Shown: in pieces, positions 39,121 to 50,504 of the stretch
Position numbering within the stretch: position 1 is the stretch's first letter
How the letters are laid out: each line of letters starts with the position of its first letter
Assembly: GCF_030297155.1 (NCBI RefSeq)
Contig: NZ_AP028068.1
Span: 620,001-684,000 of the forward strand
Reading direction: 5' to 3'
DNA length: 64,000 nucleotides
DNA from: Vibrio sp. FE10
GTDB lineage: Bacteria; Pseudomonadota; Gammaproteobacteria; Enterobacterales; Vibrionaceae
Position numbers and translations under genes: made by a program
The notes under the pieces: model-generated
The model's input: only the letters and a program-made list of their open reading frames with translations
What the model was told of the DNA's origin: nothing
Database searches by the model: none

Positions 39121-39425
39121 TCCTTTGATGTGATGTCAGATAAAGCAGAACTAAGAGATAAGCAACGTAAGATAAGCATGTCGCTCGTTATCTATCCATT
39201 GAATAATTCTTAACCCATATTACCTAATGACGTAAGTTAAAAAAGGTTAAACCGATTAAATTGCGAATAAACGCCACAAAAAACCATGCCTCTCCCTCTC
39301 TAACTTCCTGTTCAATAACATCACCCCAAATTGATCGAACTTCAACAAGCCCGCGTATACATCTCTGAATTACGTACGAACCAAATCCGTACAGACTCAA
39401 CCACGTATGAACTAAGGAGCGCTAT
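39121..39425. other. Intergenic region, divergent promoters
   Basis: 305 bp between the tautomerase-like gene and the LON-domain gene. I see no repeat, dyad or ORF with a ribosome-binding site. Confidence 0.5.
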
Positions 39426-40046
39426 GTGCCGAATTCAGCTGAGAAGATCACACGGATAGAAACCGAATCAGAAACACCCGTAGAGACTTCTCACGAGCTT
39501 GCGGTGTTTCCTCTACCGTTATTCATTTTGCCAAGGGGCAGACAAAGACTGCGTATTTTTGAGCCCAAGTATTTGAAAATGGTTGCTCACGCGGCGCAGG
39601 GAGAAGGCTTCATCATTGCGACTCAAGACGACACCAACTCCGAACGACTGAGTTCTTGGGGGACCAAGGTGTCTATTGTCGATTTCAATATGTCAGATGA
39701 TCAAATTCTGGAAATTGATGTTGAAGGCGAACAATTGGTGCAACTTCACTCGTCCTTCCGCGACACTGATGACCTGATCAAAAGTGATTTCCGCCCACTG
39801 CCGCACTGGCCACAACACCGCTATAAGGTGCCGAACGTGGTTACCGCGTTTCTCGTCGAGTTGTTTCGAGAACACGATTCGATCAGAACACTCTACCCAT
39901 CTCCTGACTTTGAAAGCCCTCAATGGATATGTGCTCGACTACTCGAAATGATGCCTATCCCATTGGAAAAGAAAACCAAATTCACAGAACCCGCTAGTTT
40001 TCCTTCGTTAGTTCCCTTTTTGAATCAAATCATTACAGGGCAATAA
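39426..40046 (+). CDS. LON peptidase N-terminal (substrate-binding) domain protein
   Basis: A 206-residue stand-alone Lon N-terminal-like domain without ATPase or protease. Typical parts are ELAVFPLPLFILPRGRQRLRIFEPKYLKMV (about 25-54), FIIATQD and a C-terminal PSPDFESPQWICARLLEMMPI. Such proteins are thought to bind unfolded substrates; function is unproven. The start is GTG at 39426 with AAGGAG seven bases upstream. A nearby ATG is in another frame. It lies upstream of the ECF sigma promoter and may be part of the same stress region, though it has no such promoter itself. Confidence 0.88.
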   Translation: MPNSAEKITRIETESETPVETSHELAVFPLPLFILPRGRQRLRIFEPKYLKMVAHAAQGEGFIIATQDDTNSERLSSWGTKVSIVDFNMSDDQILEIDVEGEQLVQLHSSFRDTDDLIKSDFRPLPHWPQHRYKVPNVVTAFLVELFREHDSIRTLYPSPDFESPQWICARLLEMMPIPLEKKTKFTEPASFPSLVPFLNQIITGQ

Positions 40047-40097: not shown

Positions 40098-40125
40098 TGA
40101 TCCCCACCTTCACTCTCCACGTAAT
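40098..40125 (+). promoter_or_regulatory. ChrR-regulon ECF sigma promoter
   Basis: TGATCC (40098-40103) and CGTAAT (40120-40125) are separated by 16 bp. This equals the -35/-10 consensus described for the RpoE/ChrR singlet-oxygen regulon of Rhodobacter. It is 31 bp before the sigma factor ATG, so the sigma factor probably transcribes its own gene. Confidence 0.82.
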
Positions 40126-40156
40126 GTCTATCAAATTCGCATAATGGTTAATTACT

Positions 40157-40804
40157 ATGCAAGTGGAAAGCAGAAGAACAGGGAACGGCAAGGAGCATGT
40201 CATTATCCCAGACAACAAACTACCTACTGAAAGTAAGGTACCTACAGAGCTCTCAAGCTGGCTGATTTTGGTTGGTTCAGATAGAGATAAGCAAGCATTT
40301 ACTTGTTTGTTTAAGTTCTTTGCTCCCAAAATTAAGCGTTTTGGCATCAGCAAGTTGGGCGGTGAAGCCGCTGCCAACGAGTTAGTCCAAGACACAATGA
40401 CTAATGTTTGGAAGAAAGCGCATCTCTACAATGAAGAGAAAGGCGCTGCGACCACTTGGGTATATACCGTGATGCGAAATGCTGCTTTCGACATGCTAAG
40501 AAAGGTGAAAGCTAAAGCAGAGCAAACCATCGCTGACGATATTTGGCCGATTGACGCCATGGTAGCCGAATCACAAAGCGAGCAGCTTCCATTTGGCGAT
40601 CATCTAATGAGCCGTCACGTCATGACTCAAATAGAGAAGTTACCTCTCGCTCAGAAAACCATTGTGAAAGGTGTCTATTTCCAAGAGTTATCGCAAGAAC
40701 AGCTCGCCCAACAACTCGATGTCCCGCTTGGAACTGTTAAATCACGTCTAAGACTCGCACTCGCCAAACTAAAAGTTCACATGGGGGAACAAGACCATGA
40801 TTAA
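40157..40804 (+). CDS. rpoE: ECF sigma factor, ChrR-controlled (RpoE-like)
   Basis: A 215-residue ECF sigma factor. Region 2 spans about 45-115 (AFTCLFKFFAPKIKRFGI, NELVQDTMTNVWKKAHLY, TWVYTVMRNAAFDMLRK) and region 4 about 150-205 (LPLAQKTIVKGVYFQELSQEQLAQQLDVPLGTVKSRLRLALAKL). Its partner chrR overlaps it by eight bases. In Rhodobacter the homologous pair releases the sigma factor upon singlet oxygen. An autoregulatory promoter lies upstream. The N-terminal 35 residues are extra and polar. This is not the envelope-stress RpoE, which pairs with RseA. Confidence 0.92.
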   Translation: MQVESRRTGNGKEHVIIPDNKLPTESKVPTELSSWLILVGSDRDKQAFTCLFKFFAPKIKRFGISKLGGEAAANELVQDTMTNVWKKAHLYNEEKGAATTWVYTVMRNAAFDMLRKVKAKAEQTIADDIWPIDAMVAESQSEQLPFGDHLMSRHVMTQIEKLPLAQKTIVKGVYFQELSQEQLAQQLDVPLGTVKSRLRLALAKLKVHMGEQDHD

Positions 40805-41486
40805 ACATCACCCAAATGCGGCAATCTTGAAAGATTTTGTTGATGGCAATCTAGCGGATTCGGTTTCTCTGATTGTTTCTAGCCACGTAGAGCTATGTGA
40901 ACACTGCCAAAAACAAGTAAGTATGCTGACGGCACAAGCTGCTGACTCAGCCTTTGAAAGCGATGCATCAGGGCTAAAACTGTCTGACAGCGAAATGGAC
41001 GCATTCCTAGCTGACGACGTAGAGTTTGATTTTGACGCGATTAATCAGATCACGGCGGATTTATCACAGGCTGTCGAAGTCGTTGTTGAAGCGCAACAAG
41101 AAACCGTATCTAACACCACTTTCACGATTCCTCGCGCGCTCAACTCAGTGGTAAGAAAAGACTGGATGAACTTGGGCAAGATTTCTCGCGCAAGACTCGA
41201 TTTCGATGACGAATCACACCACACCAGCTTGTTACACATAGACAAAGACGGACAAGTGCCTTGCCACACTCATAAAGGCTTCGAGATCACGCTTCTTTTA
41301 GAAGGCAGCTTCGAAGATGAAATGGGTGTCTATAACAAAGGTGACTTCATCTGGTTAGATGGAGAACACACCCACCAACCTGCGACTAAAGAAGGCTGTG
41401 TGTGTTTAACCGTTTCAAGTGATGCGCTTTACTTCACAAAAGGGGTGAGCCAGTTATTTAATCCACTAGGTAGATATATCTATTAA
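40797..41486 (+). CDS. chrR: ChrR family zinc anti-sigma factor
   Basis: A 229-residue anti-sigma factor. The N-terminal zinc anti-sigma domain has HPNAAILKDFVDGNL and the HVELCEHC cluster (H-x3-C-x2-C, about 31-38). The C-terminal cupin (about 125-229) has HTHKGFEITLLLEG and GDFIWLDGEHTHQP, the His/Glu residues that bind the second metal and sense singlet oxygen in ChrR. Intact metal ligands suggest a working sensor. It overlaps the sigma gene, favouring balanced synthesis. Downstream lies a photolyase and lipid-gene operon that is the expected target. Confidence 0.93.
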   Translation: MIKHHPNAAILKDFVDGNLADSVSLIVSSHVELCEHCQKQVSMLTAQAADSAFESDASGLKLSDSEMDAFLADDVEFDFDAINQITADLSQAVEVVVEAQQETVSNTTFTIPRALNSVVRKDWMNLGKISRARLDFDDESHHTSLLHIDKDGQVPCHTHKGFEITLLLEGSFEDEMGVYNKGDFIWLDGEHTHQPATKEGCVCLTVSSDALYFTKGVSQLFNPLGRYIY

Positions 41487-41504
41487 CTTAGTTGCACGCT
41501 ATAA

Positions 41505-41537
41505 ATATACAGGATGGCATGAAGCTATCCTGTATAT
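41505..41537. repeat. Perfect 11-bp inverted repeat after chrR
   Basis: ATATACAGGAT (41505-41515) and ATCCTGTATAT (41527-41537) flank an 11-base loop. No T-run follows, so read-through into the next operon is plausible. It could be a processing hairpin or operator. I found no second TGATCC-type promoter in 41487-41661. Confidence 0.7.
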
Positions 41538-41661
41538 CGTCAATACATCTGGCTTAAAACATCAATGGTGTTGAGATTTCAAACGCACCCGGCTCTGTAA
41601 GTACGATTAGCAATGTTGAAATAAAATAAATAGCTCAAAGCAAGAGCAAAGGAGTTGGCCA

Positions 41662-42609
41662 ATGGAAAAGAAAATTAAAATCGGCATTAGTGCATGTGTC
41701 GCCGGTCATAAAGTTCGGTTCGATACTGGCCATAAGCGTTCTCGTTTTTGCACAGAGGATCTTGCAGACTACGTAGAACTTGAGCCAGTTTGCCCAGAGA
41801 TGGGCGTTGGACTTCCAACGCCTCGTCCTACGATCCGTCAAACAAGAATGTTAGACGACATTATTCATGTTTCCCGACCTGATGGTTCTGGTGATGTTAC
41901 CAACGAACTGATCGAGTTTGGGCAAAACTATTCAAAGAATAACCAACACATCGCTGGGTTCATTGTGTGTCAGAAGAGCCCAACCTGTGGCATGGAGCGA
42001 GTAAAGGTTTATCACCACCATGGGCGCGGTTCTGAATCGACAGGCGTTGGCTTGTTCACTCAGCAGGTTATGCAAGGCAACCCCCTACTTCCTGTAGAAG
42101 AGAATGGTCGACTCAACGATCCGATTCTGCGTGAAAACTTTATGACTCGTGTTTTCACTTATCAAAAGTGGCTCGACCTTGTCGATGAAGGCGCCACCAA
42201 ACACAAATTGATTCAATTCCACAGTGCTCACAAGTATCTAGTGATGTGTCACCATGTTGAAGGCTACAAGAGCCTAGGCAAACTTCTAGCGAGTAACGAT
42301 TTAGAGATCGATGAGCTGGCTGAAAAGTACATCGAAGGTCTGATGACGGCGCTAATGCATCATGCCAATCGCGGCAGTCATGCTAATACTCTGCATCACT
42401 TGCAAGGCTACTTTAAGAAACAACTGAGCAGCGCTCACAAACAAGAGCTCACCAATCAGATTTCATCATTCAGAGAAGGGCTAGTTCCTTTGTTAGTTCC
42501 ACTAACACTGATCAACCACTACCTGATGGAATACCCAAACGAGTACCTAGAATCACAAGTTTACCTAAACCCGCACCCCCAAGAACTTAAGCTGAGATAC
42601 GGATATTGA
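41662..42609 (+). CDS. DUF523 and DUF1722 (YbgA-like) protein
   Basis: A 315-residue protein. The DUF523 half (about 5-150) has KIGISACVAGHKVRFDTGHKRS, LEPVCPEMGVGLPTPRPTIRQ and CQKSPTCGMERVKVY, with several conserved Cys. The DUF1722/YbgA half (about 175-305) has WLDLVDEGATKHKLIQFHSAHKYLVMCH. E. coli ybgA likewise sits directly before phrB, so a role tied to photorepair is likely, but the chemistry is unknown. AAAGGAG precedes the ATG. It overlaps the photolyase start by four bases. Confidence 0.92.
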   Translation: MEKKIKIGISACVAGHKVRFDTGHKRSRFCTEDLADYVELEPVCPEMGVGLPTPRPTIRQTRMLDDIIHVSRPDGSGDVTNELIEFGQNYSKNNQHIAGFIVCQKSPTCGMERVKVYHHHGRGSESTGVGLFTQQVMQGNPLLPVEENGRLNDPILRENFMTRVFTYQKWLDLVDEGATKHKLIQFHSAHKYLVMCHHVEGYKSLGKLLASNDLEIDELAEKYIEGLMTALMHHANRGSHANTLHHLQGYFKKQLSSAHKQELTNQISSFREGLVPLLVPLTLINHYLMEYPNEYLESQVYLNPHPQELKLRYGY

Positions 42610-44066
42610 GCGACATTCTATGGATAAGACGAGATCTGCGGGTTCACGATAACCCAGCGCTCGTCTCTGCGGTTGAAAACGGCGTCTCTCTCGCCGTTTT
42701 TATTTCAACCCCGCAGCAATGGCAACAACATCACCTTGCACCGATAAAAGCGGACTTCATCTATCGCCACCTAAAACAGTTCGAATCACAACTCGCTGAA
42801 TTCGGTATCACTCTTCTGCATCTCAAAGCCACGGATTTTAACGATCAAGCCACCCAGCTCATCGACTTATGCAAACAGAGCGATGCGACATGTGTGTACG
42901 CCAATTCAGAGCCGGAAGTGGATGAGCAGTTAAGAGACAAACGCTTAATCGCAAGCGGCATCAAACTGAAGATAACCGACTGCGATACGATTCTGCCATT
43001 AGGTAGCGTGCTGAATAAACAAGGCGAGATGTTCAAGGTTTTCACGCCTTTCAAAAACGCATGGTTAAAAGAAGTTCAAGCGAAAGGCATTATTTGCAGC
43101 CACGCTCCGGAGCATTCAACAGGATCAGCGCAAGCAGGTTCATCTGAAACAGATTCGCCTCAGAACCTATCACCTCAGAATCCATCACCACTGAATCAAT
43201 CGTTAAGTGGTTTTTCTGGCGAGTACGATTTCGACTTTCCGCGTACCGATTCAGAGCGTTGGCCACTAAGCCAAGACGTCCTTGAGAGCGTGATCCCCAA
43301 TTTCTTAGCCAATAAAGTTAACGACTATTCTCGCCTTAGAGATATTCCATCGGTGAAGGGGACTTCTGGTCTTTCGCCGTACTTGGCTATTGGTGCAGTC
43401 AGCCCTCGTTGGTTAGCGATTCAATTGATTCAGCAACAGCCTGACTTGTTATTTGATACTCAGTTGCCAGCCTTTTCTTGGCTTAATGAATTGATTTGGC
43501 GAGATTTTTATAAGCATTTGATGTTCCATCATCCTAAACTGGTTAAAGGTGCTAACTTTCAACAAAAGTACAATGGCTTAGATTGGTATCACGACAACCC
43601 TAGCTTCAAGGCGTGGTGCGAAGGCAAAACAGGTTACCCTTTGGTTGATGCAGCCATGCGTCAATTGGTTGAGACAGGCTGGATGCACAACAGGCTCAGA
43701 ATGGTGGTGGCAAGCTTCCTGACCAAACACCTGTTGATTGAATGGCGCTGGGGCGAACGCTTCTTTATGTCGCACCTTATCGATGGTGATTTCAGCGCGA
43801 ATAATGGCGGTTGGCAGTGGGCTTCGAGTACGGGTTGTGACGCTCAACCTTACTTCCGAATTTTCAATCCAATCACCCAGAGTGAAAAGTTTGATCCGAA
43901 AGGAATTTTTATTCGTAAGTACATTCCAGAGCTGCAAAATATTCCTGACAAGCATGTGCATTTTCCACATGATTACATTGCAAAAAATGGAATTAACAGC
44001 GAATACTGGCAACCCATCGTTGAACACAAAGAAGCACGATTGAGAGCCTTAGCCTTTTTCAAATAA
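42606..44066 (+). CDS. phrB: Class I deoxyribodipyrimidine photolyase
   Basis: A 486-residue flavoenzyme that repairs cyclobutane pyrimidine dimers with blue light. The N-terminal antenna domain starts SDILWIRRDLRVHDNPAL. The FAD-binding helical domain has WRDFYKHLMFHHPKLVKG, TGYPLVDAAMRQLVETGWMHNRLRM and DGDFSANNGGWQWASSTGCDAQPYFRIFNP. The start is TTG within the upstream stop (TTGA overlap). An inserted Ser/Pro/Gln linker (about 177-200, repeated SPQN-like units) separates the domains and is longer than in E. coli PhrB. Placement behind ChrR fits photo-oxidative induction. Confidence 0.95.
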   Translation: MSDILWIRRDLRVHDNPALVSAVENGVSLAVFISTPQQWQQHHLAPIKADFIYRHLKQFESQLAEFGITLLHLKATDFNDQATQLIDLCKQSDATCVYANSEPEVDEQLRDKRLIASGIKLKITDCDTILPLGSVLNKQGEMFKVFTPFKNAWLKEVQAKGIICSHAPEHSTGSAQAGSSETDSPQNLSPQNPSPLNQSLSGFSGEYDFDFPRTDSERWPLSQDVLESVIPNFLANKVNDYSRLRDIPSVKGTSGLSPYLAIGAVSPRWLAIQLIQQQPDLLFDTQLPAFSWLNELIWRDFYKHLMFHHPKLVKGANFQQKYNGLDWYHDNPSFKAWCEGKTGYPLVDAAMRQLVETGWMHNRLRMVVASFLTKHLLIEWRWGERFFMSHLIDGDFSANNGGWQWASSTGCDAQPYFRIFNPITQSEKFDPKGIFIRKYIPELQNIPDKHVHFPHDYIAKNGINSEYWQPIVEHKEARLRALAFFK

Positions 44067-44080
44067 TTAGAGTGAATATT

Positions 44081-44512
44081 ATGGATAACTCTCTATGGCT
44101 TGATAACTTTCTCAACATGTATCGAGAGCTCGGAACCGACAATTTCGACGTGCTAAAGACGGTTTATCACCCTGATATCGAATTCCAAGACCCACTGCAT
44201 CATGTCAGTGGGATTGTCGCGTTAACGCATTACTTCGAGAACATCTACACACAAGTCACTAGCTGTTACTTCCACATCGAACACACCTTTGAAGTGAAAG
44301 ATGAAGCATCCGTTTATTGGACAATGCAATTCGCTCACAAGCAACTCAACGGACAAAAGCCGATTGAAGTTCAAGGGCACAGTCATATTAAAATGTTGGA
44401 CAACCAAGTGGTTTATCATCGCGATTATCTGGATGTGGGTTCGATGTTGTACGAGCACATTCCAGTATTAGGTTGCGCGATCAAATCCATTAAAAAAAGA
44501 GCGAGCCGATAA
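44081..44512 (+). CDS. NTF2/SnoaL-like protein
   Basis: A 143-residue NTF2-fold protein (SnoaL-like cavity). Typical parts are WLDNFLNMYRELGTDNFDVLKTVYHPDIEFQDPLHHVSG and the sheet YWTMQFAHKQLNG with a late YHRDYLDVGSMLYE. The fold binds or isomerises small hydrophobic molecules; no catalytic set is clear. The ATG at 44081 is chosen over an in-frame GTG at 44072 because GAG lies eight bases upstream. Its stop overlaps the SDR start (TAATG). It belongs to the ChrR-linked operon. Confidence 0.88.
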   Translation: MDNSLWLDNFLNMYRELGTDNFDVLKTVYHPDIEFQDPLHHVSGIVALTHYFENIYTQVTSCYFHIEHTFEVKDEASVYWTMQFAHKQLNGQKPIEVQGHSHIKMLDNQVVYHRDYLDVGSMLYEHIPVLGCAIKSIKKRASR

Positions 44513-45243
44513 TGCGTATTATGATCACAGGCGCGACCTCAGGTATCGGCCAATCACTCACTATAGATTATGCTCAACAAGGACATCAAGTGATTGCTTG
44601 CGGCCGTAACCAAGACAAGCTACAAGCCTTAGTTGATTCTCACGAGACAGACTTATCGCACTCGTCAATTGACCCACTCTGTTTTGATTTGACCGATTAC
44701 CACAATTTCCCCGAGCTTGACGAAGATAAGCCGCTCGACCTCCTGATCTTGAACGCAGGTGATTGTGAATACATTGATGATCCTGTCAATTTCGATGCAG
44801 AGTTGTTCGAGCGCGTCATCAACATCAATCTCATTTCAATTGGCTACGCCCTTAAAGCTTGGTTAAAAAACATCAAGCCCGGCGGACGCTTGGTTTTGGT
44901 AAGTTCAAGCGCGAGCTTTTTACCACTGCCAAGAGCTGAAGCTTACGGCGCTTCAAAAGCCGCTCTCACCTACTTGGGTAGAACACTGTCAGTGGATCTC
45001 GCCGAGCACAACATTCATGTCTCAATTGTGCACCCGGGCTTTGTTGAAACACCATTAACCGAGCGAAACTCCTTCGCTATGCCTATGATTATTAGTAGCG
45101 AGGCAGCCACTCAACGAATCGTAAATGGTATTGCTCAAGGAAAGAGCGAGATCGATTTCCCAAGACGATTCATATTAATAATGAAATTACTAAGAATGCT
45201 ACCGACTCCAGTTTGGCAAAAACTCGCTTCAAGGATGGTATAA
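44512..45243 (+). CDS. Short-chain dehydrogenase in the ChrR-linked operon
   Basis: A 243-residue SDR. The cofactor motif is TGATSGIGQSL (about 5-15), NAG lies at about 82-84 (LLILNAGD), and the catalytic Ser, Tyr and Lys appear in LVSSSASF and YGASKAAL. The C-terminal end is hydrophobic (FILIMKLLRMLPTPVWQKL), suggesting membrane contact and a lipid substrate. The reaction is not known. It is translationally coupled to the NTF2-like gene and two bases before the FAD oxidoreductase. Confidence 0.92.
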   Translation: MRIMITGATSGIGQSLTIDYAQQGHQVIACGRNQDKLQALVDSHETDLSHSSIDPLCFDLTDYHNFPELDEDKPLDLLILNAGDCEYIDDPVNFDAELFERVININLISIGYALKAWLKNIKPGGRLVLVSSSASFLPLPRAEAYGASKAALTYLGRTLSVDLAEHNIHVSIVHPGFVETPLTERNSFAMPMIISSEAATQRIVNGIAQGKSEIDFPRRFILIMKLLRMLPTPVWQKLASRMV

Positions 45244-45245
45244 CA

Positions 45246-46517
45246 ATGAAAAAAATCGCCATTATAGGTTCAGGCATCTCTGGACTGACTTGCGCACATG
45301 TATTAGATAAGCACCACGACGTTACGGTATTCGAGAAAAATGACTACGTCGGCGGGCACACTGCTACGGTTGATATAGAACACCGAGGCACGGCGTTTTC
45401 AATTGATACTGGCTTCATCGTTTTCAACGACAGAACCTACCCAAACTTCAACAAACTGCTTGAGCAACTCGGTGTAGAAAGGCAACCCACCGAAATGAGC
45501 TTCAGCGTACACAACACCACGACTAAATTCGAATACAACGGCCACAGCATTAATTCTCTGTTTGCTCAACGAAGCAATATCTTCAAACCCCAGTTCTGGT
45601 CTTTGGTTTCTGACATTCTTAAGTTCAACAAATTGTGTAAAGCACAATTCGAAAGCAATGTGTTTACACCTGACGTTACCCTTGGCAGTTTCTTGCGTGA
45701 TAACCAGTTTTCTGACTTCTTTAGCCAGCACTACATTCTGCCGATGGGTGCCGCTATTTGGTCGACAAGCTTAGAAGAGATGGAAGAGTTCGAACTTAAA
45801 TTCTTTATTCAGTTTTTCTACAATCACGGCCTGTTAGACATTGCCAATCGTCCCCAGTGGTATGTGATTCCTAAGGGTTCGCGCTCGTACGTTGAGATCA
45901 TCCTTTCATGCTTAAATAAACCAGTCGCGTTAAACACCTCGATTAAACAAGTCATTCGTCAAGAGTCAGGCATTACCATTGAATTCGAAGACGGCGCTAC
46001 ACAAAGCTTCGACGAAGTGATTTTTGCGTGTCACTCAGACCAAGCCCTGCGTTTGCTGGGCGACGCGACAGAGCAAGAACAACAAGTGTTAGGGGAGATC
46101 CCTTACAGCCGAAATGAGGTGGTTCTGCACACGGATACCAACCTGTTACCCGACCGTAAACTGGCGTGGGCAAGCTGGAACTACATGTTAGATGGCAATA
46201 GCCAAAGACCAGCCTGTGTCACTTACAACATGAACATTCTGCAGGGCATTGAAAGCCAAGACACCTTCTGCGTAACCCTAAACCAAAGTGACGCGATAGC
46301 GCCTGAGAAAATCATTCGCAGCTTCGTTTATCATCACCCGGTACTTAACTCGAACACGGTAGAAGCCCAGCATAAGCGCGAGCAAATCTGCGGCAAAAAC
46401 AACACCCACTTTGCAGGTGCTTATTGGTACAACGGATTTCATGAAGACGGTGTTCACAGTGCACTCGATGTCACGAAGCGCTTTGGCTTAGATTTGAGCA
46501 CGAGTTCAGTACGATGA
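45246..46517 (+). CDS. FAD-dependent oxidoreductase (amine oxidase/desaturase-like)
   Basis: A 423-residue flavoprotein. The Rossmann motif MKKIAIIGSGISGLTCAHVL and the adjacent EKNDYVGGHTATVDIE place it in the NAD(P)-binding, amine-oxidase-like family that includes carotenoid and fatty-acyl desaturases. FAIDTGF-like IDTGFIVFN and a late HFAGAYWYNGFHEDGVHSA close the FAD site. The start at 45246 has AAGGA upstream; an earlier frame overlaps the SDR. With DUF1365 and a CFA-like enzyme it forms a conserved trio also known in the ChrR regulon of Rhodobacter, where related proteins act in furan fatty acid synthesis. Confidence 0.9.
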   Translation: MKKIAIIGSGISGLTCAHVLDKHHDVTVFEKNDYVGGHTATVDIEHRGTAFSIDTGFIVFNDRTYPNFNKLLEQLGVERQPTEMSFSVHNTTTKFEYNGHSINSLFAQRSNIFKPQFWSLVSDILKFNKLCKAQFESNVFTPDVTLGSFLRDNQFSDFFSQHYILPMGAAIWSTSLEEMEEFELKFFIQFFYNHGLLDIANRPQWYVIPKGSRSYVEIILSCLNKPVALNTSIKQVIRQESGITIEFEDGATQSFDEVIFACHSDQALRLLGDATEQEQQVLGEIPYSRNEVVLHTDTNLLPDRKLAWASWNYMLDGNSQRPACVTYNMNILQGIESQDTFCVTLNQSDAIAPEKIIRSFVYHHPVLNSNTVEAQHKREQICGKNNTHFAGAYWYNGFHEDGVHSALDVTKRFGLDLSTSSVR

Positions 46518-47329
46518 ACACTCACACCATGACATCCGACATGGAGATCGCATCAGAAAAGAGTGAAGAACTCAGCGGCATTTACTGGGGCAACGTACGC
46601 CACCGCCGCTTTGGCGATATTACTCATGAATTCAGCTACCAGTTATACATGATGGGGTTGGATCTCGATGAAATCCCTCAAACAACAACTCGCAGCCGTT
46701 TGTTCGGTACTCAATGGTATAACCCGATTCGCTTTGTCGAATCGGATTATCTCGCTGAAAAAAAAGAAAATGTCACAACTGATGAACCTAAAACACTAAA
46801 GCAACGTATAGCTTCCAAAGTACAACAACTTGGTGGCGATTGGGCGGTAGAAAACCGCGTCACAATGTTGGCTCAGTGTCGTTGTTTAGGGATTTATTTC
46901 AGCCCAATCAACTGTTTTTTCTGTTACGACGAGACTGGTGATTGTCGCTACATGTTGGCCGAAGTGAGTAACACGCCATGGCGAGAAAGACACTATTATC
47001 TCATCGACATGCAAAAAGAATTGAAAGTAAAAAAAGAGTTTCACGTTTCGCCGTTCATGGATTTAGACATGAACTACTTGTGGAAAATAAAACCACCAAC
47101 GAAACGGACGTTAGTACACATCGAGAGTCATCGTAGCGACAAGATTTTTGATGCCACACTAGCACTCTCAAAGCAGTCGGTAACAAAAGCAAACATTAGG
47201 AAAACGGTACTGCGGATCCCAGCAATGACAATCAAGGTTGTAATGGGTATCTACTTTCAGGCTCTCAAATTATTTCTGAAAAAAGTACCGTTTGTGGCGC
47301 ATCCAGATTCAGCGTCTAAAACGCCTTAA
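46514..47329 (+). CDS. DUF1365 family protein
   Basis: A 271-residue protein of the DUF1365 family, recognised by SGIYWGNVRHRRFGDITHEFSYQLYMMGLDLDE near the N-terminus, INCFFCYDETGDCRYMLAEVSNTPWRERHYYL (about 135-166) and FHVSPFMDLDMNYLWKI. It starts in ATGA overlap with the FAD gene, so the two proteins are probably made in step. The family is nearly always next to this flavoprotein and a CFA-like methyltransferase, implying a shared lipid substrate. No catalytic role is established. The region 46760-46800 is Lys/Glu-rich and looks like an insertion. Confidence 0.9.
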   Translation: MNTHTMTSDMEIASEKSEELSGIYWGNVRHRRFGDITHEFSYQLYMMGLDLDEIPQTTTRSRLFGTQWYNPIRFVESDYLAEKKENVTTDEPKTLKQRIASKVQQLGGDWAVENRVTMLAQCRCLGIYFSPINCFFCYDETGDCRYMLAEVSNTPWRERHYYLIDMQKELKVKKEFHVSPFMDLDMNYLWKIKPPTKRTLVHIESHRSDKIFDATLALSKQSVTKANIRKTVLRIPAMTIKVVMGIYFQALKLFLKKVPFVAHPDSASKTP

Positions 47330-47429
47330 AGATGTCTAAATTGAAGGCTTGGGTAAGCTTAACGAGATAAGCAGTTCTAGCCCTAAGTCAGTAAAACTAA
47401 ATTTAAAACAATTTCTCAGCGAGGTTTCC

Positions 47430-48710
47430 ATGGAACAGCTTGCCAAACAAAACAACAACGTAGAACAACAAGCTAAAGCCGTTGCTGTTTCAAGCAACTG
47501 CAAATATCGAGCTCTGATTTTCAAGGTTCTAGAACGTCTGCAATTCGCAAAACTCGAAGTGATAGAACGAGACCAACATTCGGTGTTTGGAGACAGAGAA
47601 GCGACCTTAAGCGCTCAAATCGTTATCCATGACGCGAGCTTTTACCGAGATGTGGTGATGAGCGGCAGTATTGGGGCATCTGAAGCCTACATTGATGGTA
47701 AATGGACCAGCCCCGACCTCACTCGCGTCATTCAAATCATGGCGCGAAACCAAGCTCAACTGGATGAATTGGACGACAAAACACAGTGGATTTCTAAATT
47801 CAAAAACCTACTTCTTCGTCGTAAAAATTCCAACACCGAACAAGGCTCTAAAAGAAACATTCTTGCCCATTACGACATCGGTAACGAGTTGTATGAACGC
47901 TTTCTTGATTGCTCAATGCTGTACTCATCGGCTATCTACAGTGAAGACGCATTGACTCTGTCGAAAGCACAGCAGAACAAGATGAAAACCATCTGTGAAC
48001 GCTTAGAGCTTTCAGAATCGGACAGCGTAGTTGAAATCGGTACTGGTTGGGGCGGTTTAGCGATATTCATGGCACAGCACTACGGGTGCCACGTTACTAC
48101 CACGACCATTTCAGATGCCCAGCACGAACTGGCAGAACAGCGAGTCAAAGCGCTTGGTTTAACCGACAAGATCACTCTGCTTAAAGAAGATTACCGAAAC
48201 CTGTCAGGCCAATACGACAAGTTGGTGTCTATCGAGATGATAGAAGCGGTTGGGCATGAATATCTGCAAACTTTCTTCGAGAAGTGCTCTTCTCTGTTGA
48301 AGCCTTCAGGAAAAATGCTGATTCAAGCGATTACCATTGCCGACAGCCGTTATGATAAATACCGTAAAGGCGTCGACTTTATTCAGAAGTACATCTTCCC
48401 CGGTGGTTGTTTACCTTCGGTAGCCGTGATGACTCAACACCTCGCCACCAGCACAGACCTTGTGGTTCAAGAAATCGATGACATTGGGCTGCACTATGCT
48501 CGCACACTTAACGACTGGAACGTTGCCTTTGAAAACAGTTGGGAAGAGCTCGAAGCATTGGGCTATTCAGAAGAGTTTAAACGCCTTTGGGTCTTCTACT
48601 TCTGTTACTGCGAAGGGGCATTCCTAGAGCGCGTGATCAGCACTCATCACCTTGTCGCAAGAAAACCTCGTTACTTTGGAGCAAAAGATGAAACGGTTTT
48701 GGATTATTAA
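47430..48710 (+). CDS. cfa: Cyclopropane-fatty-acid-synthase-like SAM methyltransferase
   Basis: A 426-residue methyltransferase acting on unsaturated membrane acyl chains. The SAM motif is VVEIGTGWGGLAIF (GTGWGG at 204-209). Catalytic Glu272 and Tyr356 match E. coli Cfa Glu239 and Tyr317. Ser167 replaces Cys139 (YSSAI versus YSCAY) and Gln299 replaces His266 (LIQAI versus LLHTI). The QAITI-type block is typical of CFA-like paralogues that may transfer a methyl without ring closure, as in Rhodobacter UfaM. The ATG at 47430 has GAGG five bases before; a TTG frame 81 bases upstream is less likely. A 100-bp gap precedes it. Confidence 0.9.
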   Translation: MEQLAKQNNNVEQQAKAVAVSSNCKYRALIFKVLERLQFAKLEVIERDQHSVFGDREATLSAQIVIHDASFYRDVVMSGSIGASEAYIDGKWTSPDLTRVIQIMARNQAQLDELDDKTQWISKFKNLLLRRKNSNTEQGSKRNILAHYDIGNELYERFLDCSMLYSSAIYSEDALTLSKAQQNKMKTICERLELSESDSVVEIGTGWGGLAIFMAQHYGCHVTTTTISDAQHELAEQRVKALGLTDKITLLKEDYRNLSGQYDKLVSIEMIEAVGHEYLQTFFEKCSSLLKPSGKMLIQAITIADSRYDKYRKGVDFIQKYIFPGGCLPSVAVMTQHLATSTDLVVQEIDDIGLHYARTLNDWNVAFENSWEELEALGYSEEFKRLWVFYFCYCEGAFLERVISTHHLVARKPRYFGAKDETVLDY

Positions 48711-49209
48711 TCTCGTTCTGTTTCAAGCGACCTGGGTTTGCAGCGCGTTCTTTACCGCGCAAGCCCCGTTCGTTACTCCACTGTTCGTGATTATCCATTT
48801 CCTTCTTTCTCCGACTCGCAATAGCGATCTCAAAATCCTCTGTTTGTTACCTTTGGGTCTACTGCTCGATAGCTTGATGCTGCATTTTGGCGTGTTCGCT
48901 GTTGATCCTGATATCGCCAATCAAACCATATTCCCAGTGTGGCTTGTCTGCCTGTGGATCATGTTTTTAATCAGCTTCAATCACAGCCTAAATTGGCTTT
49001 TAAAATGCTCGAAAGTGATCTTGTTTGTCATAGGGTTCGTAGCAGGTACTAGTAGTTATTGGGGAGGCATCAAAGCAGGCGCCCTTCTTACTACTTGGCC
49101 AGATGCATCGGTGTTAGCTGCCCTTGCAATAAGTTGGGGGATTTTGTTGCCCTTACTGGTGGCCGCCTACTCCAACTTAGTACAACCTAAAATGGCAACA
49201 ACGAGGTGA
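48688..49209 (+). CDS. DUF2878 family membrane protein
   Basis: A 173-residue inner-membrane protein with about five hydrophobic segments. FWIINLVLFQATWVCSAFF at the N-terminus and LLPLGLLLDSLMLHFGVF (about 55-72) match DUF2878. The family is unknown but repeatedly neighbours CFA-like genes. The start at 48688 has GGAG six bases upstream and lies 23 bases inside the preceding gene, indicating coupling. Confidence 0.87.
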   Translation: MKRFWIINLVLFQATWVCSAFFTAQAPFVTPLFVIIHFLLSPTRNSDLKILCLLPLGLLLDSLMLHFGVFAVDPDIANQTIFPVWLVCLWIMFLISFNHSLNWLLKCSKVILFVIGFVAGTSSYWGGIKAGALLTTWPDASVLAALAISWGILLPLLVAAYSNLVQPKMATTR

Positions 49210-49212
49210 CTT

Positions 49213-49836
49213 ATGGCTTTTCCACGCAACCCGGCGCAAGCGTTCAAACCTGAGAGCGACAGCAGTCGCGCACGCACGCATTCAAACGATCGTACGCAAA
49301 CAAGCTTTCATATCCAAGCTAGCAAGCAAAGAACGAACAAACTTTTCAGCTTTATCACCCTATCCCTAATTTTTGCTGCACTCCTGTTCACCGGCAATGC
49401 GAAAGCTTCTGCCGTCGATGATCTCAACAAGCGCGGTCAAGGCGAAATGAGTTACCTATTTTGGACTCTCTACTCTGCGGAGTTCTACACCACGCCAACC
49501 AACTCTGAGCGCGCACTCAAGCTTGAGTATTACCGTTCTATCGATAGCAAAGACTTGGTGGATGCGACCAAAGATCAATGGAACAAGCTTGGTTATTCTA
49601 AAAACAACATCCAACGTTGGTTGAAACCTTTGTATGCGATGTGGCCTAACGTTGAAGAGGGAAGCACTCTCACTATTCGTGTTGCTGAAGACAACGTGAG
49701 CCGTTTTTATTTCGACGAACAACCCATCGGCATCATTCAAGACAAACAGTTTGGTGAAGCCTTTTTAGCCATTTGGTTATCGGAAAACACATCCGAGCCC
49801 GGCCTACGCAAACAACTACTAGGTTTAAATAAATGA
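49213..49836 (+). CDS. Chalcone isomerase-like exported protein
   Basis: A 207-residue protein with a late hydrophobic signal (about 43-65, SFITLSLIFAALLFTGNAKAS) after an unusually long polar N-region of about 42 residues. The mature part matches chalcone-isomerase-like proteins of bacteria (GEMSYLFWTLYSAEFYTT, YYRSIDSKDLVDATKDQWNKLGY, FGEAFLAIWLSE). These are thought to bind fatty acids, not flavonoids. GAGGTGA precedes the ATG. Its stop overlaps the DUF3833 start by four bases. Confidence 0.85.
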   Translation: MAFPRNPAQAFKPESDSSRARTHSNDRTQTSFHIQASKQRTNKLFSFITLSLIFAALLFTGNAKASAVDDLNKRGQGEMSYLFWTLYSAEFYTTPTNSERALKLEYYRSIDSKDLVDATKDQWNKLGYSKNNIQRWLKPLYAMWPNVEEGSTLTIRVAEDNVSRFYFDEQPIGIIQDKQFGEAFLAIWLSENTSEPGLRKQLLGLNK

Positions 49837-50375
49837 GTTCAAAAACAACAATAATAAAAGTCGCTCTAGCACTGCTTTCTCTCACTTGGCTGGCGGGTTG
49901 TGGCTCTGCCAATTTAGAGAACCACGTAGACACCACCCCAGAGCTGAAATTGGAAAGCTTTTTTGATGGTGAACTGATGGCCTACGGCATGGTGCTTGAC
50001 CGCTCTGGTAACCTATTGCGCCGCTTTGACGCCAAGCTTATTGCCACTTGGGACGGTAACAAGGGAGAAATCAAAGAGTGGTTTACGTTTGCAGATGGTG
50101 AGCGGTCCACTCGGGTTTGGAACCTGATAAAAACCGGTGACAACACCTACACAGGAACGGCCAACGATGTGATTGGTACCGCTTATGGTGAAACTCAAGG
50201 CTCGGCTCTGTATTGGAAATACGACCTAGAAATCGAAGTGGATGGCAGCACTTATGAAGTGGTGTTGGATGACTGGATGTTCTTGATGGACGACAAACGC
50301 TTGTTCAACAAAACCGAGATGTCGAAGTTCGGCTTTAAAGTCGGTGAAGTGATCTTATACATCGAGAAAATCTGA
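49833..50375 (+). CDS. DUF3833 lipoprotein
   Basis: A 180-residue lipoprotein: signal with lipobox LAGC (Cys23 region, SLTWLAGCGSANLE). The mature DUF3833 domain has LESFFDGELMAYGMVLDRSGNLLRRFDAKLIATWDG and YEVVLDDWMFLMDDKRLFNKTEMSKFGFKVGEV. It resembles lipocalin-like barrels and may carry lipids between membranes. It is the last gene of the ChrR-linked operon, before the only strong terminator of the block (50469). Confidence 0.9.
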   Translation: MSSKTTIIKVALALLSLTWLAGCGSANLENHVDTTPELKLESFFDGELMAYGMVLDRSGNLLRRFDAKLIATWDGNKGEIKEWFTFADGERSTRVWNLIKTGDNTYTGTANDVIGTAYGETQGSALYWKYDLEIEVDGSTYEVVLDDWMFLMDDKRLFNKTEMSKFGFKVGEVILYIEKI

Positions 50376-50468
50376 TTGAGAGAGTCTTAGTTTGACCTTG
50401 TCTTGTTGGCGCTTCTTTTCATCCCACACCAGCTCTAGGTTCACAAGACAACCGCAGTTCGCAACAAT

Positions 50469-50504
50469 ACAGCCCACAACGTGAAATTGTGGGCTGTTTT
50501 GTTT
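50469..50504 (+). terminator. Terminator of the ChrR-linked operon
   Basis: An 11-bp stem ACAGCCCACAA/TTGTGGGCTGT with a 7-base loop is followed by TTTGTTT. The rest of the 310-bp gap to 50686 holds no supported gene. Confidence 0.88.

Follow-up and report, generated by a model that had tools for sequence, protein, structure and literature searches.

An RpoE-ChrR core regulon of Rhodobacter and its relatives was reportedly described by Dufour in 2008. Here we consider a counterpart from Vibrio sp. FE10, found in a window of 64,000 nucleotides (the whole stretch of DNA analysed; contig NZ_AP028068.1), in which genes for the sigma factor, its anti-sigma factor ChrR, a RudS-type protein, the photolyase PhrB and a block of lipid enzymes form one locus with what appears to be a second RpoE-type promoter inside phrB. 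The closest described systems are the following. The RpoE-ChrR (ECF11) core regulon: this shares with the window the sigma factor, ChrR, a photolyase, a short-chain dehydrogenase/reductase (SDR; RSP1087), a DUF1365 protein (RSP1090), an amine oxidase (RSP1091), a cyclopropane fatty acid synthase-like (CFA-like) methyltransferase (RSP2144) and the promoter type; the window unites all of these in one locus and adds RudS, NTF2-like, DUF2878 and chalcone-isomerase-like genes and the phrB-internal site (PMC6852236, PMC5507510). The RpoE2 system of Shewanella oneidensis: it shares the promoter elements, a LON gene, a ybgA-phrB-cfa operon (SO_3386-SO_3374) and an rpoE2-chrR pair whose overlap is likewise ATGATTAA, but is split into two separate loci, and the table of that study gives a site before SO_3386 and none inside phrB (PMC4336711). 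The Vibrio cholerae system: it shares blue-light induction, dependent on ChrR and the sigma factor (PMC5241685), with up-regulation of the CFA-like gene VC1122; by locus tags, however, the photolyase (VCA0057), rpoE-chrR (VC2302-2301) and the lipid gene lie apart, and the last of these was taken for a cyclopropane synthase (PMC5241685, PMC11976125). The furan pathway UfaM-UfaD-UfaO (PMC7380195): its three families recur in the window, adjacent as in Halomonas (PMC12089945), though the window version is gammaproteobacterial and comes with extra envelope genes.

The core of our locus is the published RpoE-ChrR singlet-oxygen regulon, and both this regulon and the furan pathway were already known; what is new is the putative second RpoE-type promoter site inside phrB. 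We think it probable that the locus is an RpoE-ChrR operon for singlet oxygen or blue light with one promoter before the sigma gene (P1) and another inside phrB (P2), and that its lipid block makes furan fatty acids. It likewise seems probable that in Vibrio, Shewanella, Aeromonas, Pseudoalteromonas, Colwellia and Idiomarinaceae phrB is a dual-code gene: its synonymous sites would be selected to keep an RpoE (ECF11) promoter from which the furan-fatty-acid genes could be transcribed directly.

The putative promoter inside phrB

P2 has the form TGATCC-N16-CGTAAG and points towards the lipid genes; its bases are at the same time those of the codons for the peptide FDPKGIFIRK. Two sets of loci are referred to below: the related loci, which are the best 80 of at least 525 around a UfaO homologue (selected by UfaO; about 20 kb each), and 40 Vibrio loci taken from 93 Vibrio genomes with DUF1365, mostly genomes of few contigs. 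The motif TGATC-N15-18-CGTA stands at codons 429-438 in 64 of 78 module-side photolyase (phr) genes (63 by strict alignment columns), against 8.2 expected when synonymous codons are re-drawn from each gene's own usage, and it occurs elsewhere in phr in none of the 78. Where the peptide matches (59 genes; the 18 module-side genes without it were left out of this count), Phe is encoded by TTT in 57 and both Asp by GAT and Arg by CGT in all 59. Arg437 is CGT in 66 of 69 cases (76 genes) against a CGT usage of 25%, the strongest outlier of 110 conserved degenerate columns. On a tree of 77 module-side phr genes (L063, with a broken phr frame, is omitted from the trees) the Arg437 codon, which holds the -10 element, changed once over 71 rows with Arg, against 27-36 changes at 11 other conserved Arg columns, and the Asp430 codon changed 4 times, where nine other Asp columns did so 7-22 times; this test, made inside the module side, allows for relatedness. 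Although position 438 is taken by K, R, T, M, N, I and other residues, the first base of its codon is A in 66 of 77 genes, against 6 of 43 away from the module.

These bases have to be weighed against a simpler account, a single transcript from P1 with the phrB motif as a by-product of the FDPxGxFIRK peptide and codon bias. The amino acids alone do raise the chance of the motif, as the 8.2 expected among 78 shows, and such a transcript would sit well with the gene packing and good end terminator of the locus, with a Pseudoalteromonas record in which the whole gene set is contiguous and the chrR-rudS gap is 8 bp, and with the lack of a strict site in many lipid blocks that start alone. It leaves the excess to 64 unexplained, as it does the freezing of codon 437 and the hold on the first base of codon 438 through changes of residue; moreover, phr genes away from the module carry the motif Pro in 26 of 44 and the motif Arg in 37 of 44 (L316 included), yet none has the site. 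We regard this account as unlikely.

The phr genes away from the module comprise a control set of 43: 40 from Vibrio genomes with the lipid block on another contig, drawn from 94 Vibrio genomes with a phr match (partial and some full-length matches being left out), and the E. coli, Enterobacter and Proteus records. The site is found in none of these 43, where 0.8 would be expected, and Arg437 is CGT in 10 of 37 (L316 included). Salinivibrio L316 is counted, by its annotation, on the module side in the 43/78 split and is still among the genes without the module in the counts of 44 and of 37.

The position of the site relative to the lipid genes was also compared among loci. Of the 70 loci where phr ends at most 250 bp from the NTF2 gene, 62 contain the internal site, or 63 with L065, which bears the site in the codon alignment and falls outside the count because an overlapping frame shortened its search window. 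None of the 6 loci in which phr is more distant has the internal site, and 5 of them (L039, L074, L075, L108 and L111; L078 is without) have an intergenic RpoE-type site that precedes the NTF2 frame by 86-244 bases; four of these five form one Shewanella clade and L039 is a separate lineage. Photobacterium L317 has the internal site even though its phr clusters with genes of the other clade (support 88). Vibrio loci without an adjacent phr have a site before NTF2 in 15 of 26, where about 0.6 would arise by chance, and other loci whose lipid block starts alone, led by NTF2 or SDR, have a strict site in 5 of 12 (L071, L074, L075, L108 and L111); pooled, a like site precedes the lipid genes in 20 of 38 loci in which phr is not adjacent. 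An intergenic promoter in several lineages with separated genes suggests that what is selected is not the operon but the possession, by the lipid block, of a sigma promoter of its own. From the sequences, exchange between an internal and an intergenic site is seen in some lineages and is not general.

Placement bears too on the idea that the frozen bases serve another function in DNA or RNA that merely resembles a promoter, such as binding of a MerR-type PhrR, an antisense start or an RNA element. An Aeromonas record does have a MerR gene between rudS and phr, and the V. cholerae DUF2878 gene VC1123 is said to belong to a PhrR regulon in RegPrecise (PMC12971978). The frozen bases are nonetheless exactly TGATCC and CGTA, the elements that 49 of 54 loci carry in front of rpoE. 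A close PhrR is lacking from the host genome, where the best match scores 31.8 bits, and in five of the loci with phr away an intergenic copy in the same direction takes the place of the site. We consider such a function very unlikely.

The nearest precedent is the RpoE-type sigma factor of P. syringae, for which chromatin immunoprecipitation sequencing placed 54 of 87 motif peaks in coding regions, and which binds upstream of phrB inside the neighbouring gene PSPTO_1122 (PMC5507510). There the site lies ahead of phrB, within the neighbouring gene, and phrB would be its target; the window site lies within phrB itself, and its targets would be the lipid genes. Neither the open-licence literature searched nor the cited papers yielded a description of an RpoE promoter within phr.

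Several points weigh against a promoter in phrB. The authors of the P. syringae study advise caution over peaks in coding regions (PMC5507510). The 16-base spacer is set by the protein motif and so lends no independent support. The contrast between genes with and without the module comes down largely to a single division of the phr tree and is weak by itself: the module label changes 2 times and the site 7 times, giving 1-2 independent pairs, with which a sign test cannot reach significance. The site is lacking from 14 of the 78 module-side genes (15 by strict columns), including Salinivibrio (L316), Ferrimonas and some Idiomarinaceae in which phr adjoins NTF2. Finally, lipid blocks that start alone have no strict site in 11 of 26 Vibrio loci and in 7 of 12 others (L078, L098, L099, L101, L105, L106 and L110); four of these seven (L098, L101, L106 and L110) have no site before rpoE either, and hence the motif may have drifted there.

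Two further observations concern these genes. Among 72 genes, codon 370 of phrB, for Ser, reads AGC in 53 and AGT in 18, making it the second strongest codon outlier of phr; the sole account we have for it is the existence of two serine codon blocks. An RpoE-like motif, absent from the window, is present in the last 53-92 bases of the DUF2878 frame, before the chalcone-isomerase-like gene, in Aeromonas, Shewanella and Motilimonas (L049, L050, L052, L056, L059, L060, L061, L065, L068, L108 and L111), and is perhaps another internal promoter in those lineages.

The predicted furan fatty acid pathway

In Rhodobacter, RSP1091 is UfaD, the DUF1365 protein RSP1090 is UfaO and UfaM is a CFA-like methylase; the three jointly form furan fatty acids on the chains of phospholipids (PMC7380195). 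The preliminary description had left DUF1365 without an assigned step, which the identification of this family as UfaO (Lemke 2020, PMC7380195) supersedes; its CFA-like reading of the lipid rewriting likewise seems wrong or incomplete, given that the three adjacent genes match the families of UfaD, UfaO and UfaM. The DUF1365 protein of the window is the only copy found in the host genome and is 99% identical to UfaO of Vibrio lentus, which suggests that the host is closely related to that species; an amine-oxidase-family UfaD and a CMAS-family UfaM lie beside it. As the three Ufa families stand in a row, the predicted product is a furan fatty acid and not a cyclopropane, contrary to the cyclopropane reading given to the homologues in V. 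cholerae (PMC5241685) and Shewanella (PMC4336711). A pair of UfaD and UfaO linked to ChrR in an alphaproteobacterial record (L144) gives matches of 467 and 177 bits.

According to that cyclopropane reading the CFA-like gene would make cyclopropane fatty acids, with UfaD and UfaO acting elsewhere. The best family names of the protein are indeed cyclopropane synthases, and it is the sole strong CMAS-family gene of the host genome, where the only other match over the family cut-off scores 36.2 bits. Against the curated cyclopropane synthase families, however, it scores 279.6 bits where the cut-off is 400, and the gene is found with UfaD and UfaO in all of the 80 best loci, a set chosen by UfaO. 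Halomonas has the same three genes consecutively, and its UfaM in E. coli gave the furan intermediate 11-methyl-octadec-12-enoate, although cyclic acids were seen in that strain too (PMC12089945). We judge a cyclopropane product improbable. Two qualifications count against our preference for furan acids. The identities of UfaM, UfaD and UfaO in the window are predictions from family matches. The bicarbonate ligands of E. coli Cfa, of which an alignment finds C139 replaced by S and H266 by Q with E239 and Y317 kept, fail as an argument for a furan product: cotton cyclopropane synthases carry the same H266Q and C139S changes (PMC3132707), which are not diagnostic and are equally at home in the cyclopropane account.

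The remaining genes of the block are less directly tied to synthesis. Deletion of RSP1087, RSP1088 or RSP1089 left the fatty acids of Rhodobacter unchanged (PMC7380195), and on this basis the SDR, perhaps with other accessory genes, probably acts after or beside synthesis. The DUF3833 protein, whose Cys23 is invariant in 53 aligned sequences, is predicted from a structural model to be a lipoprotein barrel of the fatty-acid-binding-like (calycin) type with a ten-stranded fold. In the genomes sampled, 26 of 27 with DUF2878 also carry DUF1365 (7.0 expected), as do 34 of 36 with DUF3833 (9.4 expected), a co-occurrence from which both families gain context. In A. salmonicida the genes from NTF2 to DUF2878 change jointly with riboflavin supply and were called an operon of unknown function (PMC10012899). 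In Chlamydomonas, two CFA-like genes and a DUF1365 gene are induced by singlet oxygen (PMC4067076), which hints at a furan pathway outside bacteria.

Layout, control and conservation of the locus

Table 1. Features of the RpoE-ChrR locus in the window
Feature	Position	Strand	Remarks
RpoE-type promoter-like site before LON-domain gene	39332..39358	+	TGATC-N17-CGTAT
LON substrate-binding-domain protein	39426..40046	+	PF02190; in-locus in 49/80 related loci
P1, RpoE-type promoter of rpoE-chrR	40098..40125	+	TGATCC (40098-40103), N16, CGTAAT (40120-40125)
ECF (extracytoplasmic function) sigma factor, RpoE of RpoE-ChrR type	40157..40804	+	Sigma70_r2 and r4; NF009178 over cut-off
ChrR anti-sigma factor	40797..41486	+	TIGR02451, 182.5 bits (cut-off 124.5)
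Hairpin in chrR-rudS gap	41505..41537	+	14 pairs (one G-U), without T-run; z -3.05 for 117-base stretch
RudS-type protein, TudS desulfidase fused to DUF1722	41662..42609	+	PF04463, PF08349; Cys12, Cys44, Cys109
phrB, cyclobutane pyrimidine dimer (CPD)-type DNA photolyase	42606..44066	+	NF007955, 533 bits (cut-off 506)
P2, proposed RpoE promoter within phrB, codons 429-438	43892..43919	+	TGATCC-N16-CGTAAG; synonymous-site freeze
NTF2/SnoaL-like protein	44081..44512	+	PF12680; 76/80 loci
SDR oxidoreductase	44512..45243	+	PF00106; 78/80 loci
UfaD-like flavin (FAD) amine-oxidase-family desaturase	45246..46517	+	PF01593; 80/80 loci
UfaO-like DUF1365 protein, predicted furan-forming oxygenase	46514..47329	+	PF07103, 263 bits
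UfaM-like S-adenosylmethionine methyltransferase, annotated CFA-like	47430..48710	+	PF02353, 271 bits
DUF2878 hydrophobic protein	48688..49209	+	PF11086; 68/80 loci
Chalcone-isomerase-like protein (Chalcone_3), N-terminal hydrophobic segment	49213..49836	+	PF16036, 46.8 bits
DUF3833 lipoprotein, predicted fatty-acid-binding-like barrel	49833..50375	+	PF12915; model and fold matches
Intrinsic terminator	50469..50504	+	11 pairs, then TTTGTTT; z -5.2

The preliminary description had noted an ECF sigma-ChrR pair behind TGATCC-N16-CGTAAT, ten packed genes on the same strand and a single strong terminator, all of which the sequence bears out. P1 ends 31 bp 5' of the sigma ATG, the sigma and chrR genes overlap by 8 bp, and ChrR exceeds the curated cut-off of its family. 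The ten genes 3' of chrR are joined by overlaps of 1, 4, 4, 4 and 23 bp and gaps of 2, 3, 14 and 100 bp. The terminator has the longest stem of the 17 sites of a scan of the window, in which shuffles yield 12.8 chance sites, so that the weaker ones mean little. That description passed over the 175 bp between chrR and the first of the ten genes, the largest gap of the locus. Nor did it recognise RudS, the site within phrB or the LON-domain gene, which has a site of its own. The light stress that it proposed accords with the ChrR- and sigma-dependent blue-light induction in V. cholerae (PMC5241685) and the RpoE2-induced ybgA-phrB-cfa operon of Shewanella (PMC4336711). Its view of the locus as one unit agrees with the operon layout; given the site in phrB, the unit is probably not driven by one promoter alone. 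It had held that an unrelated promoter driving the later genes would speak against such a unit: a second promoter does seem present, but of the same sigma factor. Gene order divides the 40 Vibrio loci into 14 in which the lipid block is fused with rpoE-chrR-rudS-phr and 26 in which it stands alone.

Membership of the RpoE-ChrR (ECF11) type is indicated by a sigma factor with regions 2 and 4 directly 5' of chrR, by the TGATCC-N16-CGTA promoter sequence and by both ChrR motifs, the zinc anti-sigma HxxxCxxC at residues 30-37 and the cupin-like HxHxxxE at residues 157-163, which were compared with the R. sphaeroides ligands given in PMC6852236. Of 54 related loci, 49 have a site ahead of the sigma gene when CGTA is required and 42 when CGTAW is; all 14 fused Vibrio loci have one. 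TGATC-N15-18-CGTAW occurs three times in the window, all on the + strand and all listed in Table 1, against a shuffle mean of 0.80 (2 of 100 shuffles reach 3). Like sites lie 5' of LON genes in 26 of 49 related loci, and the Shewanella LON gene SO_1987, which likewise has a site of its own, is reported to be RpoE2-induced (PMC4336711); the LON-domain gene of the window is a likely regulon member with its own promoter-like site. Across the host genome (6.0 Mb), whose second-largest contig holds the window, the same motif occurs 86 times, against 48 in a reversed control, and single genomic sites therefore prove little. Among 20 of the 86 that were inspected, 8 lie inside longer genes, 5 at or just before gene starts and 7 have no clear target. 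Sites at or just 5' of DCC1-like oxidoreductase, DUF2805, FolB-family, cryptochrome/photolyase-family and fasciclin-domain genes (L185, L186, L187, L188 and L201) make these five genes candidates for further regulon members; control of cry1 by ChrR/RpoE in V. cholerae (PMC11976125) fits the site at the cryptochrome/photolyase-family gene.

The gene that follows the 175-bp gap is predicted to encode a RudS-type eraser of 4-thiouridine (s4U) in tRNA. With the RudS tRNA desulfidase (PMC11417400) its product shares the TudS-DUF1722 fusion, the three cluster cysteines and a light-responsive neighbourhood. Placed by cysteine offset, Glu46, Arg55 and Ser106 would correspond to the catalytic Glu51, Arg60 and Ser111 of the P. 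putida protein, whose catalytic Ser113 would be replaced by Thr108. The described RudS genes of Pseudomonas and Salmonella are under MerR-type control (PMC11417400), while that of the window is predicted to be under RpoE-ChrR, like SO_3386 in Shewanella. The gap itself matches only itself in the host genome, with no second copy of its hairpin found there, and the hairpin is absent from V. lentus L032; it is possibly a local attenuator.

The single-locus form is one of two common arrangements and is also present in Shewanella and Pseudoalteromonas. DUF1365 is present in 93 of 99 Vibrio genomes sampled. Besides the counts in Table 1, in-locus counts among the 80 related loci are 80 for UfaM, 64 each for the chalcone-isomerase-like protein and photolyase, 63 each for RudS and DUF3833, 55 for ChrR and 54 for the sigma factor, and the complete 13-gene order is kept in 20. 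In L064, L067 and L073, DUF2878, chalcone-isomerase-like and DUF3833 genes stand as a block in front of LON-rpoE. The module has a different genomic setting in L143, labelled Klebsiella pneumoniae: rudS ends the lipid block, a Cus-type metal efflux operon lies close by, and the stretch has neither rpoE-chrR nor phr.

Proposed mechanism and implications

From these components the following course can be proposed. ChrR would hold the sigma factor until inactivation of ChrR, known in relatives to follow singlet oxygen or blue light, frees it to fire P1 and P2. Transcription from P1 would yield the sigma factor, ChrR, RudS and PhrB and then read on; RudS would remove 4-thiouridine, a chromophore for ultraviolet A, from tRNA, and PhrB would repair DNA. 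P2 would provide a start of its own for the block from NTF2 through SDR, UfaD, UfaO, UfaM, DUF2878 and the chalcone-isomerase-like gene to DUF3833, so that the lipid genes would be directly induced even if few P1 transcripts get past the hairpin-bearing 175-bp gap and two long genes. UfaM would methylate monounsaturated acyl chains, UfaD desaturate them and UfaO close the furan ring with O2. The furan fatty acids would scavenge singlet oxygen and may feed back on ChrR as in Rhodobacter, where they are required for ChrR turnover (PMC6852236). The likeliest purpose of P2 would be to make the lipid block independent of long read-through and, in operons that contain a MerR gene, of MerR control.

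A promoter of this kind would mean that regulon maps which scan upstream regions alone miss such internal sites, and its deep conservation makes a promoter within a gene testable in several model bacteria. In the light-stress response of Vibrio and Shewanella the predicted lipid step would yield furan instead of cyclopropane fatty acids; in Rhodobacter the furan acids act as scavengers of singlet oxygen and also as part of the signal for ChrR turnover. The removal of 4-thiouridine from tRNA would be tied into the same response.

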